Shown here: one piece after another, positions 44,174 through 51,041 of the stretch | How the letters are laid out: each line of letters begins with the position of its first letter | How positions within the stretch are numbered: position 1 is the stretch's first letter | DNA from: Planctomycetaceae bacterium | GTDB lineage: Bacteria > Planctomycetota > UBA1135 > GCA-002686595 | DNA: 64,000 bases | Direction of reading: 5' to 3' | Assembly (NCBI GenBank): GCA_016125265.1 | Contig: WGMC01000013.1 | Coordinates: 124,001 to 188,000 of the forward strand | Notes under the pieces: model-generated | What the model saw: the letters and a program-made list of their open reading frames with translations, nothing else | Told to the model about the DNA's origin: nothing | Database searches by the model: none | Made by a program: the position numbers and the translations under genes

Positions 44174-44500
44174 TCAGTTGGCGGAGCCGGGGAGTAGGCG
44201 CACGCGCAGCCAGTTCGCGCGGTCGCCGGCGAAGCTGTCGCCGCTGTTTTCGGCCACGAGCGCGAGTGTTCGGGCGCGATTGAGGCGAGGGGCGGCGCGT
44301 CGAAGGTCGCGTCCGCGACCGTCAGCACGGGGCTCTGCCACACGCGTTTGCCGTCGAGTTCCACCGCACAACGCACCAAACTCCGCGCACATGGGCGCAG
44401 GCTCGACGCGACCACGGCGAACGCGAGGATGTTCGCGTCGTTGTGAATCTTGGAGGGGAGCAGTCCCGGCAAGGAGGCATTCCAGCAGTGGTCTCTGACG
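44174..44500 (-). pseudogene. Decayed NPCBM-domain fragment
   Basis: Read on the minus strand, this remnant matches the C-terminus of the intact NPCBM protein at 47741-49018. The first stretch reads RCAVELDGKRVWQSPVLT (intact: RFAVELDGKRVWQSPLLT). After a frameshift near 44280 another frame reads ARTLALVAENSGDSF, then AGDRANWLRVR (intact: AKSLALIAEDGGDGF, then AGDRANWLRAR), ending at TGA 44174. Upstream (SKIHNDANILAFAVVAS) is a weaker match to the domain core. The N-terminal two-thirds are missing. Confidence 0.75.
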
Positions 44501-44928: not shown

Positions 44929-46431
44929 ATGGGCACGTACCGACCCAAACAGCTCGCCGCGATCGTGATCGCAGTTCCGTTCTTCTGGATCGAAGCGGGC
45001 GCCGCAAACGCCGTTCCCTGCACCTTCGCAACCGATGCAGACTTCGTAGCAGCGGATGGCGCGGAACTCTCCGGCGAAATTGTTTGCCAATCTTTCCACG
45101 TGCCGGCTGGCCACACGGTGTTCATCGTTGGAGACCTAGTGATTGACGCCAAGGATCGCATCGAAGTTCACGGTGAACTTCGGGTGCGCGACGCGGCTGC
45201 GATGCCTCGCACGTTCTCGGAAATCTCCCTCGAAATCCCTGCTCTTTCTGTCGAGGCGATCAACCTGGCCACCATCCGAGCTGGACTGCCGGACCTGCGG
45301 CTTGTGCCCTCCCTCGCCGCCCCCAACCTCGAGTTGCGCGCCGGGTCGTTGCTCTGGCTACATGGGCCGACGACGGGTGGGCGAGGAGCCTCCGCCGTGG
45401 ATTGGCCGGACGGAATGGATCTGCTAGTGCCCGGCGGTCAGGGGTCTAGCATCCTCCTGCATGCGCCCTTGATTGTGGTGGAAGCTCCGGTCCTGGCCGG
45501 CGTTGGTGGATCCGCCGGGCGTGCGGGACACGGCGGCCACGGAGGCGACGTCATCGTTGTCGGCACGGCACTCACGCGGTCCCACGCGGAGCCGCACGGT
45601 GTGTTGGCTGGCGGCGCCGGAGGCGCGTCGTCGGCGGGTGTATGGGCGTTGGAAGGGGAGGATCAAGTTCCCCTGCCCGGGGGCAACGGTGGGAATGGCG
45701 GCAGCGTCGAGTCTCACCCCCATCCGGCGGTCTTCGCGGGGGACGCGGGATTCACCGTCGACCTAGCTGTTCTGCTCGAAAGCTTGCCTCTCGCCGCCTC
45801 CTCAGCGAATGGAGCCGCGGCGCTCGATTGTGGCACAGCACCCGGGGCCGTGGGTCTGGCGGGTACGAGCATGACCGGCGCAACAGGTTCCCCGGGCAGC
45901 CAAGGCGCCCACGGGCAGTCGGCGTCCCAGCCCAACGGAGCGCCGGGAGGCACCGGAGGTTCCGGGGGCAACGCCACCGGGCGCACAGGTGGTCCCGGCG
46001 GAGCCGGGCAAACCTGCTGCTCCCCTCCGGCAGCGGGGAGCGCCGGTGGGCAGGGAGGGCCGGGCGGAAACGGAACTGGAGGGGTAGGTGGAGTCGGAGG
46101 TCTCGGCGGGAACTCGTTCTACGATGGAACGTCCTGGGTAGGGCAGGGTGGCAACGGAGGCAACGGCGGGCCTGGAGGAACCGGCATCGGCGGGGACGGG
46201 GGCAAAGGGGGCACTCGCGGCGGTGGCTCAATACCTGGTGCAGGCGGCCCAGGTGGGACGCCGGGCAACGGGACTGGGGGAGCTGGCGGCGGGTTCGGTC
46301 AGGGCGGTGTTGGCAATCTGAATGGACTCGAGGGAAGCACGGGCGGAATCGGCGGCGCAAGCGGTGGAGGTCACGGGGCGCAAGGGGACCTCGGCTCGCA
46401 GTGCTCGTCCCTCTTCTGGGGGCCCAAGTGA
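44929..46431 (+). CDS. Exported glycine-rich repeat protein A
   Basis: 500 aa from ATG 44929 (GAGGA about 10 bases upstream), chosen because it gives a signal peptide (MGTYRPKQLAAIVIAVPFF, then an ANA-type site). Residues ~25-250 show beta-helix-like rungs (VFIVGDLVIDAKDRIEVHGELRV, LIVVEAPVLAGVGGSAG). The second half is Gly/Asn/Ser-rich (GGNGGNGGPGGTGIGGDGGKGG), reminiscent of extracellular Gly-rich or PGRS-like tails, with few Cys. Tandem paralogue of the next gene. No function known. Confidence 0.75.
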   Translation: MGTYRPKQLAAIVIAVPFFWIEAGAANAVPCTFATDADFVAADGAELSGEIVCQSFHVPAGHTVFIVGDLVIDAKDRIEVHGELRVRDAAAMPRTFSEISLEIPALSVEAINLATIRAGLPDLRLVPSLAAPNLELRAGSLLWLHGPTTGGRGASAVDWPDGMDLLVPGGQGSSILLHAPLIVVEAPVLAGVGGSAGRAGHGGHGGDVIVVGTALTRSHAEPHGVLAGGAGGASSAGVWALEGEDQVPLPGGNGGNGGSVESHPHPAVFAGDAGFTVDLAVLLESLPLAASSANGAAALDCGTAPGAVGLAGTSMTGATGSPGSQGAHGQSASQPNGAPGGTGGSGGNATGRTGGPGGAGQTCCSPPAAGSAGGQGGPGGNGTGGVGGVGGLGGNSFYDGTSWVGQGGNGGNGGPGGTGIGGDGGKGGTRGGGSIPGAGGPGGTPGNGTGGAGGGFGQGGVGNLNGLEGSTGGIGGASGGGHGAQGDLGSQCSSLFWGPK

Positions 46432-47354
46432 TGGGCCGGTGCGCCTGCGGATGGCACCCGCACGTCCAAGCCAATCGAATGGCTGCGGTGTCGATGCTGG
46501 CCCTGGCGGGCTGTGCTACGCCGGTCGTCCGGCAGACGAATGCCCCGTCGCCGCTCGCCGTAGTATCCGCGGCAGGCCCCGCAGAATCGGCGTATGTGGT
46601 TCGGGACGGCGAGCGACTTGCGGGGAGTGCGCGCTGTGCCAACTGGATCCTTCCCGAGGGCGTCGAGGCCGTGGTGGTCGGAGATTTCGAGGTCCAGGCG
46701 ACGGGTCGGATCGAGTTGCGCGGGACCCTGCGAGTGGCCGACAACGTGGGCACACCGATGGACCGGGAGGCGATTGTTCGCGAGTGGAGCCGGTTCCTCC
46801 GCGCACACCCGCCCGCGGATGGACGGTCGCCTGACCGCCCCCCCGGAGACCTCAGCGCGACCCCGCCGTTGCGCGGTCACGCGCTGGTGTTGGAAGCCGA
46901 CGGACTCGTATGGGTGGCGGGGGAACTCCACGGCGGACACGGTGTGTCGCCCGCCGATTGGCCGACGGAACTCGCCGTCGGTCTCCCGGGTGGGCAGGGC
47001 TCGCCGATTGTGCTTGTCGGCGAGCGTGTTCAAATTGACGGCCGAGTGGTCGGAGGCACTGGCGGGGTCGCTGGGCCGGGCGGAGACGGTGGAAAGGGCG
47101 GCGACGTCGTGGTCTTCGAAGCGAATGTGGAAGCGGACGCCCGTCGCGCCGGTGCCATCCGGCTGGCTGCACATGGGGAAATCAGAACGGGCGCGGGTGG
47201 GCAAGGCGCGACCACGCCGCCTGGGATCTTGATCCAGGGCTTCCCCCGCACGGGGAGCAGCGGTGCGCCCGGCTCGGTGGAACGGCGGGATCGGAGCGAG
47301 TGGACGGGATTGCACCGTTGGCTCTGGGACCGCATGGAAACTCGGGAAAACTAG
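46431..47354 (+). CDS. Glycine-rich lipoprotein, paralogue of protein A
   Basis: 307 aa from ATG 46431, overlapping the upstream stop by one base (TGATG). The N-terminus has a lipobox (SMLALAGC, Cys ~28), so a membrane-anchored lipoprotein; ATG 46479 is an alternative start. Its domain aligns with protein A: VVVGDFEVQATGRIELRGTLRVAD versus VFIVGDLVIDAKDRIEVHGELRVRD, and GGHGVSPADWPTELAVGLPGGQGSP versus GGRGASAVDWPDGMDLLVPGGQGSS. It lacks the long Gly-rich tail. Protein A plus lipoprotein may form a secreted/anchored pair. Confidence 0.72.
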   Translation: MGRCACGWHPHVQANRMAAVSMLALAGCATPVVRQTNAPSPLAVVSAAGPAESAYVVRDGERLAGSARCANWILPEGVEAVVVGDFEVQATGRIELRGTLRVADNVGTPMDREAIVREWSRFLRAHPPADGRSPDRPPGDLSATPPLRGHALVLEADGLVWVAGELHGGHGVSPADWPTELAVGLPGGQGSPIVLVGERVQIDGRVVGGTGGVAGPGGDGGKGGDVVVFEANVEADARRAGAIRLAAHGEIRTGAGGQGATTPPGILIQGFPRTGSSGAPGSVERRDRSEWTGLHRWLWDRMETREN

Positions 47355-47740: not shown

Positions 47741-49018
47741 TCAGTCCGCCGCCGAGCGCACCATTCGTGCGCGCAGCCAGTTCGCGCGGTCGCCGGCGAA
47801 GCCGTCGCCGCCGTCTTCGGCGATCAGCGCAAGCGACTTCGCGCCCGCGAGATCGACGGTCGGTGTCTCCACCGCCGGATCGGCGCCCGTCAGCAGTGGG
47901 CTCTGCCACACACGTTTGCCGTCGAGCTCCACGGCAAAACGCACCGAACCGCGCACGCCCAAGCGCTGCGTCGAGGCGTCCACCGCCACGGATCCGAGGA
48001 AGCGCGCGTACTCGCCCGAAAGCTCCCACTCCATGCGCGTCGGCGCCAGCACGCCGATGCCGCGCGCCACGGTCCCGGCGCGTGTGGTGAGCGGCCCACC
48101 GTGCACCGCGCCGTCGATGCGCGGCGCGAAGACCATGCCGAGGTCGTCCCCGAACGGCCGTCCGCCGTCCACCTTGCTCGGCGGCAGGCTCCCGAGGTGC
48201 ACGAGCCGGCCATCCTCCGCGGCGAGCTCCCGAATGGCTTCGTAGGGCAGCGCGAACGCCGAGCCGTAAGCTTCGAGCCGCACGGCGTCGCCGCCGAGCG
48301 CGACCAGGTGCCCGGTCAACCGTCCACCGCCGACGAGATCGACGGCAACCGGTCGGGCCGGCGGAGGCCCTTGCGGACCGGAGCCCGGCAACGGGGCCAC
48401 GAAGAACGCCGCCACCTCCGTCCACGGGTAGGTGCGCCGACCGGCCAGCCCGTCGAAGACGAGCCCCTCGTCGCGGAATCCGTCCAGCGTGCCGTCCACC
48501 CGGTCGAGCCCCTCCCCCACGCGCAGGTACAGGCGGTCCGCGTCATCGGCCGCGACCAGACTGGCGAGCGACCCCGGGGGCACGCGCCCGGGGAACACCG
48601 CGCGCCGGATCCAGTCCACGGTGAGGTCGAGGCGCGGCCCCGCCGCCAGGCCGAAGCCGAGCCGTTCGCCGCTCCCTCCGGCCACGGCGCCCTGCAGCCA
48701 GTCGCCGCCGACGAGCTGGAGCTCCACCCGGTCCGGGTCCGCGTCGCCGGGGGCCGGGGGCGGCTGCTCCGCCGACGCGAACACGAGGCTCACCGGGCCG
48801 AGGGCCTGGCCCTCGGTCGGGCTCAGCTCTGGCAGCTCGGACAGGGAACGTGCCTCGGAGGTCCCATCGGCCCGCTCCACGACCACGGTTTCCTCCCCCG
48901 CCGCACCCGGCCCAGGGGGCAGCCCACCGGCCGAGCGCCCGAACGCGAGCCCCAGGACGATGGCGAGCAGCACCCGCGGACGGGTTGCGAACGGGGTGGA
49001 GCGAGGGGCGGTGCGCAT
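47741..49018 (-). CDS. Exported NPCBM-domain protein
   Basis: 425 aa from ATG 49018, giving signal peptide MRTAPRSTPFATRPRVLLAIVLGLAFG. The C-terminal ~150 residues form a carbohydrate-binding NPCBM/NEW2 domain: HGGPLTTRAGTVARGIGVLAPTRM (family theme HxxGxGxH/S), LSGEYARFLGSVAVD, VRFAVELDGKRVWQS, then ALIAEDGGDGFAGDRANWLRAR. The N-terminal part has beta strands, e.g. VELQLVGGDWLQGAVAGG and VAVDLVGGGRLTGHLVALGG. Common in planctomycetes; probably binds cell-surface or polysaccharide glycans. A decayed copy of the C-terminus is at 44174-44500. Confidence 0.75.
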   Translation of the reverse strand: MRTAPRSTPFATRPRVLLAIVLGLAFGRSAGGLPPGPGAAGEETVVVERADGTSEARSLSELPELSPTEGQALGPVSLVFASAEQPPPAPGDADPDRVELQLVGGDWLQGAVAGGSGERLGFGLAAGPRLDLTVDWIRRAVFPGRVPPGSLASLVAADDADRLYLRVGEGLDRVDGTLDGFRDEGLVFDGLAGRRTYPWTEVAAFFVAPLPGSGPQGPPPARPVAVDLVGGGRLTGHLVALGGDAVRLEAYGSAFALPYEAIRELAAEDGRLVHLGSLPPSKVDGGRPFGDDLGMVFAPRIDGAVHGGPLTTRAGTVARGIGVLAPTRMEWELSGEYARFLGSVAVDASTQRLGVRGSVRFAVELDGKRVWQSPLLTGADPAVETPTVDLAGAKSLALIAEDGGDGFAGDRANWLRARMVRSAAD

Positions 49019-49379
49019 GGGACGATCGTACGCCAGCCGCTCCCCGGCCCAAGTGCCTGCCACAAGGGCAGGAGCGCTGCGCGGTCCATCGCCGAGCTGC
49101 CAACCTGACAGTCCGGCCCACGGCGGGCCGTAGCCCCGGCCCTGGTAGGCCACCGTCTGGCCCGCGCACGCGTCGGCATCATTCTTGCATAGCCGGGCAG
49201 CCGGGCGCCGTCACTTGGACCCGTCCACCGCCCCCTCGGGGCCGCGGAGGACGCCACCCAGGTCGCCGCGCCCCGTCCGCATTCCCTCACGCACCTGCTC
49301 GAGGCCGCTCACCGCGTCCTCCCGGTGCCTTCGGACTCCCCCACGCAAGCACCCCTTCAAGGCACAAGAGAACAGCCCC
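49019..49379. other. groEL1 upstream region
   Basis: About 360 bases between the divergent NPCBM and groEL1 genes. I see no CIRCE inverted repeat (TTAGCACTC-N9-GAGTGCTAA), no groES frame and no clear sigma-32 boxes. An inverted ctgcc/ggcag pair lies near 49050-49070. Confidence 0.4.

Positions 49380-51041
<1,662 letters not shown>

Follow-up and report, generated by a model that had tools for sequence, protein, structure and literature searches.

Two adjacent genes in the planctomycete DNA analyzed here encode paralogous proteins, P1 and P2, of an undescribed family, and we found that the Gly-rich tail of P1 points to a conserved folded domain with fixed Cys positions, which is predicted to form a bundle of polyglycine-II (polyproline-II) helices. 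In the reading that we favor, to which we assign a probability of roughly 0.4, the beta-solenoid domains predicted for both proteins would associate, the lipoprotein P2 would anchor P1 at the surface, and P1 would display a rigid adhesive or structural bundle.

The window, that is, the whole stretch of 64,000 nucleotides that was analyzed, contained the two open reading frames (ORFs) reported in a preliminary description of this DNA (Table 1), and their one-base overlap was confirmed at the junction CCCAAGTGATGGGC, where the last base of the P1 stop codon (TGA) is also the first base of the P2 start codon (ATG). Since the genes overlap, P1 and P2 are probably co-translated. The sequence GAGGA was located 8 bases upstream of the P1 ATG. 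BLASTP revealed 33% identity between the two proteins across 153 residues (E = 1e-17), in agreement with the common domain proposed earlier, and the motifs quoted for that domain were found as well: VGDLVIDAKDRIEVHGELRV in the P1 translation, VGDFEVQATGRIELRGTLRV in the P2 translation, and the DWP and PGGQGS blocks in both. In the genome that carries them (48 contigs totaling 5.1 Mb, approximately 92% complete), the only relatives of P1 and P2 were each other. The GC3 values of 0.69 for P1 and 0.75 for P2 were below the window median of 0.89, as the lower GC3 noted beforehand implied; this median is a crude reference taken from 37 mechanically picked ORFs that may include wrong frames. The N-terminus of P1 was judged by eye to be signal-peptide-like, with AANA ahead of VPC, and a pattern search found no lipobox in this protein. 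In P2, which has no tail, the pattern search identified LAGC at residues 25-28. The signal peptide of P1 and the tail-less, lipobox-bearing character of P2 had both been described before and were retained.

Table 1. Features of the P1-P2 locus in the window.
Feature	Positions	Strand	Remarks and basis
P1 gene	44929..46431	+	500 aa; ORF and translation
Putative P1 signal peptide	44929..45012	+	Residues 1-28, cleavage after AANA; judged by eye
P1 beta-solenoid domain (predicted), as aligned	45013..45759	+	Alignment A3; model; solenoid matches
P1 Gly-rich tail, predicted polyglycine-II (polyproline-II) bundle	45826..46428	+	Alignment A2; lag-3 periodicity; Cys positions; model
P2 gene	46431..47354	+	307 aa, lipoprotein-like tail-less paralogue; ORF, translation and BLASTP paralogy
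Putative P2 lipoprotein signal	46431..46514	+	Lipobox LAGC, acceptor Cys at residue 28; pattern
P2 beta-solenoid domain (predicted), possible short terminal polyglycine-II stub	46545..47303	+	Alignment A3; model; matches

The C-terminal part of P1 had been described as a long Gly/Asn tail. Its Gly richness was evident, with 87 Gly among residues 300-500 (201 residues), but notable Asn richness was not observed (9 of 201), and several features distinguished the region from a loose extension. The spacing of Gly was periodic, with a lag-3 z of 6.7 against composition shuffles, and alignment A2 of eight tails revealed many invariant Gly columns. Four Cys, corresponding to residues 301, 363, 364 and 492 of P1, were in register in eight of nine tailed members, a set made up of the eight in A2 and that of genome G021; they follow the order Cys, approximately 60 residues, CysCys, approximately 120-133 residues, Cys. 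The exception is the tail of G092, in which only one Cys occupies the middle position. We also observed a mid-tail loop with aromatic residues that was preserved in most members of A2. The Gly periodicity, the invariant Gly columns, the Cys register and the aromatic loop together suggest that the tail is a folded domain. When the tail profile was used for searching, no further protein beyond P1 was detected in the same genome; among 392 genomes of the phylum, in which about eight candidates per genome were scored, only the window and the complete genome Planctomycetes bacterium Pla86 reached E ≤ 1e-12; and among 81 genomes of the family, eight proteins were found, each of them already part of the profile alignment. 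The divergent tail of G021 was missed, so all of these counts are minimum values.

The structures of the mature proteins were predicted with AlphaFold2, the P1 run using 13 aligned sequences. The kept P1 model had a mean pLDDT of 75.3 and a pTM of 0.72, while the remaining four models scored 54-60, one of five being confident. In the kept model, the tail is not disordered and is predicted to form a polyglycine-II helix bundle, which disulfides probably pin. Foldseek with the P1 model revealed two matches at E ≤ 0.001, which were the two chains of 7jjv, a springtail antifreeze protein; in VIA-align comparisons, 7jjv matched the P1 model with a Z-score of 14.8 over 118 residues at 1.9 Å, and the snow flea antifreeze protein 2pne with a Z-score of 10.2 over 81 of 81 residues at 1.1 Å. 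The sequence identity between the tail and these antifreeze proteins stems from their Gly content and does not indicate common descent, and the tail profile gave no match among the sequences of solved structures.

Both proteins are also predicted by AlphaFold2 to contain a parallel beta-solenoid. In the kept P1 model, pLDDT values of 91-96 were reached in the solenoid blocks that cover most of mature residues 11-60 and 101-190; the mature P2 model scored 78.1, and its five models spanned 74.6-78.1. The models thus place P1 and P2 in the same fold class and not in unrelated folds, which supports the earlier view that a duplication produced two exported proteins sharing a beta-helix domain, as does their paralogy. 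VIA-align matched the N-terminal domain of P1 to assorted solenoids with Z-scores of about 8-11, including LpxD, the hemopexin-binding protein, carbonic anhydrase, tailspikes and DUF3494 ice-binding proteins. The top structural match of P2 was the secretion domain of EtpA (Z-score of 11.1), followed by other solenoids. P2 also matched 7jjv and 2pne more weakly (Z-scores of 8.3 and 6.2), which suggests that the P2 model carries a short polyglycine-II stub like the P1 tail. No match at E ≤ 0.001 was obtained by Foldseek with the P2 model or in the viral structure library, and the domain profile found only weak matches among the sequences of solved structures, the best being Obg at E 0.14.

No Pfam family was matched at E ≤ 0.01 by any of the 15 members of alignment A1, P1 and P2 included, and Pfam and NCBIfam searches with P1 and P2 gave nothing at E ≤ 1; the family, for which no known relative had been obvious from the outset, is undescribed. 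The profile of the N-terminal domain recovered proteins from 12 of 154 genomes of the class at E ≤ 1e-5, and all 12 belonged to the planctomycete family of the window itself. In the sample of 392 genomes of the phylum, there were ten matches, four from the same family (that of the window included) and six weaker ones from other families. A re-scan recovered five of these six proteins (L079-L084, with L083 missing), and the five may be members of a broader superfamily. Gly-rich sequence was observed in L079 and L080, which are long and begin like lipoproteins, and in L081 and L084, which contain runs of GGxGG; two of the six were searched against Pfam and had no match. The weak hits G008, G025, G026 and G088 were not recovered by the profile at E ≤ 1e-5, and these hits and L007 (genome G012, E 6.5e-4) were left out of the family set. 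A scan of the contig collection with a strict DNA pattern, whose design excludes P1 and P2 themselves, yielded 21 loci. Seven were backed by the profile, all titled planctomycetes or Planctomycetota, with Pla86 among them; the remaining 14, which included loci of Thermus, Cerasibacillus and Sphingomonas, lacked profile support and were removed.

Conservation of the pair, which the preliminary description had proposed to look for in other genomes, was found in part. A tailed gene followed by a short gene on the same strand was present in four of the 12 genomes with the domain (the window, Pla86, G023 and G094), which represent three genera, and the other eight were without the pair. The two genes are separated by approximately 15 bases in Pla86 and, with Met starts assumed, by 82 and 167 bases in G023 and G094, which belong to the same genus. 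A lipobox-like Cys was found in the short partner of all four pairs (LAGC in P2, LGAC in G023, TASC in Pla86 and ALAC in G094, where SVGC is an alternative by eye); those of Pla86 and G094 are non-canonical. A tailed gene alone was found in five genomes (G003, G005, G021, G092 and G104), short genes alone in two (G017 and G030), and the locus of one (G080) was interrupted by a contig end. As the pair is missing from eight of the 12, the partner is not obligatory, and these absences are soft because many of the genomes are incomplete drafts. The single protein of G104 combined a lipobox-like TSGC, a solenoid and a tail, an arrangement suggesting that the anchor and the tail work together as a unit; the single protein of G005, with a lipobox-like LAAC, may be similar. 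The pattern search found no lipobox in the short protein of G017. The tailed gene of Pla86 is frameshifted and lies in two overlapping frames (L029:6624-7319 and L029:7189-8001), for which a real mutation and a sequencing error are both possible. G030 has two tail-less copies (L034:7232-7912 and L056:1396-2262, near 4.79 Mb and 1.40 Mb), and neither the N-terminal domain profile nor the tail profile found a tailed gene in it.

A tree of 17 N-terminal domains was used, from which L079-L084 were excluded. P1 and P2 grouped together (85/61), and the long and short genes of G023 and G094 formed one group (82/82), neither node being strongly supported. An insertion near P1 residues 95-130 was common to P1 and P2 and was absent or shorter in the other rows of alignment A3. 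A single clade of the four paired short genes was rejected (AU p = 5.9e-5), as was one of all seven short genes (AU p = 2.8e-8). A second tree omitted G030_shortA, G030_shortB, Pla86_short, G021_long and G080_cut, and here the three remaining paired short genes were likewise rejected as one clade (AU p = 4.4e-4). Because the trees reject a single clade of short partners, we conclude with moderate confidence, the branches being long, that the pair arose repeatedly or is homogenized by gene conversion; either fits. If the pair arose several times, the arrangement itself was probably selected.

In the mechanism that we favor, P1 would be processed by signal peptidase I and P2 would be held in a membrane by its predicted lipid. 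The bundle of polyglycine-II helices would follow the solenoid that P1 has in common with P2, the two solenoids would bind each other through their ends or their sides, the lipoprotein would anchor P1 at the cell surface, and P1 would present its rigid bundle there, for adhesion or as a structural element. We infer the link between the two proteins from their adjacency, its recurrence and the one-protein form in G104. Searches of the neighboring genes and of family membership found no pointers to adhesion. A more elaborate version, which we hold only tentatively, is an undescribed surface display system of planctomycetes in which a solenoid lipoprotein docks a paralogous solenoid protein with a disulfide-pinned polyglycine-II bundle: the two-gene form would have arisen repeatedly, when a tailed gene was duplicated and one copy lost its tail and acquired a lipid anchor, whereas one protein would combine the functions of both partners in a further genus. 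If read correctly, the family, in which the Cys and Gly register is preserved across genera, would provide a compact two-gene system for the folding, export and surface retention of such bundles. Alternatively, P1 could be freely secreted or part of a matrix and P2 a lipoprotein with a role of its own, their adjacency reflecting local duplication. The lone tailed and lone short genes are consistent with such independence, and the grouping of P1 with P2 is what local duplication would be expected to leave. However, the same gene order and division of features recur in three genera though the short partners are not one clade, and the gene overlap makes co-translation probable; we therefore regard independence as possible, though unlikely.

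We also considered whether the predicted bundle could be an artifact, the tail being instead an unfolded spacer or a trimer of the collagen type. Gly at every third residue is the collagen pattern too, four of the five P1 models were of low confidence, and the identity to the antifreeze proteins is driven by Gly content. In contrast, the tail contains only 13 Pro in 201 residues, GPP and GPA triplets are absent, so that the Pro-rich Gly-X-Y triplets of collagen were not found, and GGxGG occurs 16 times. The preservation of Cys positions and Gly register across divergent members is unlike a spacer, and the tail blocks of the kept model had pLDDT values of 64-84. This explanation is accordingly improbable.

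The structural matches raise a further alternative, in which P1 is an antifreeze-like protein whose bundle binds ice and which P2 holds near the cell. The solved structures closest to the tail belong to antifreeze proteins of springtails and the snow flea, the solenoid matches include DUF3494 ice-binding proteins (Z-scores of about 9-10.5, among many other solenoids), and the P1 tail is low in charge, with nine charged residues among the last 205. Few solved structures contain Gly-rich polyproline-II bundles, and the known settings are few as well; in addition to springtail antifreeze proteins, they occur in Obg, in acetophenone carboxylase and in adhesins of phages (PMC8409303), so the same bundle fold is not confined to ice binding. 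Moreover, the tails of relatives contain up to 35 charged residues per 205, the solenoid matches form a large and varied set (LpxD, carbonic anhydrase and tailspikes), and the DUF3494 profile matched none of the 15 members at a Pfam E ≤ 0.01. Because tail charge ranges from 9 to 35 of 205 and the fold serves many roles, an antifreeze role, although possible, is very unlikely and is not favored over surface display or adhesion.

We compared the pair with known systems. Like the predicted P1 tail, the collembolan antifreeze proteins (2pne and 7jjv) are Gly-rich polyproline-II bundles with disulfides; in contrast, they are free-standing animal proteins that bind ice through an Ala/Ser/Thr/Val face, described as flat in the springtail proteins (PMC10235112), whereas the P1 bundle comes after a solenoid domain in a bacterial protein. 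Polyglycine-II structure has also been modeled for the PGRS domains found on the surface of mycobacteria, and the PE_PGRS envelope proteins (PMC9436101 and PMC13243192) resemble P1 in having an N-terminal anchoring or export domain followed by a GGX-rich polyglycine-II sandwich. P1 shares the GGX-rich feature in its pattern and predicted model. It differs in that its N-terminal domain is a solenoid and a lipoprotein paralogue adjoins; no PE domain was found in P1 or P2, which matched no Pfam family at E ≤ 1. The gp38 adhesins of the S16 type use a layered polyglycine-II domain for recognition and resemble the predicted P1 tail, a likeness taken from their description in PMC8409303; unlike P1, gp38 is a phage protein. 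DUF3494 ice-binding proteins, EtpA and the hemopexin-binding protein share the solenoid fold with the P1 and P2 models (Z-scores of about 9-11), but no sequence kinship to known solenoids was found in Pfam or among solved-structure sequences below E 0.14. EtpA, the top fold match of P2, belongs to two-partner secretion, which pairs a TPS domain with a dedicated outer-membrane TpsB protein, yet P2 has no Pfam match. The structural pieces, as predicted, are of known kinds, and their union with a solenoid and a lipoprotein paralogue was not found in print: searches of open-licence papers revealed neither a pair of this kind nor any planctomycete polyglycine-II protein.

Finally, four neighboring proteins were assigned with Pfam to GGDEF, CarboxypepD_reg-like (below the cut-off), NPCBM and chaperonin. 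Across 12 loci and the window, neighbors were common only to two species of one genus, and the other similarities were scattered; the context therefore indicates no function, as no neighbor recurs beside the pair. A direct repeat flanks the pair (44203-44390 and 47770-47956, with 79.7% identity over 192 alignment columns). Its copy upstream of P1 reproduces the end of the NPCBM gene (47741-49153, minus strand) only in part and with a broken reading frame. The chaperonin (GroEL) gene, two genes downstream of the pair at 49377-51041, encodes a GGM-rich C-terminus, which is usual for GroEL.
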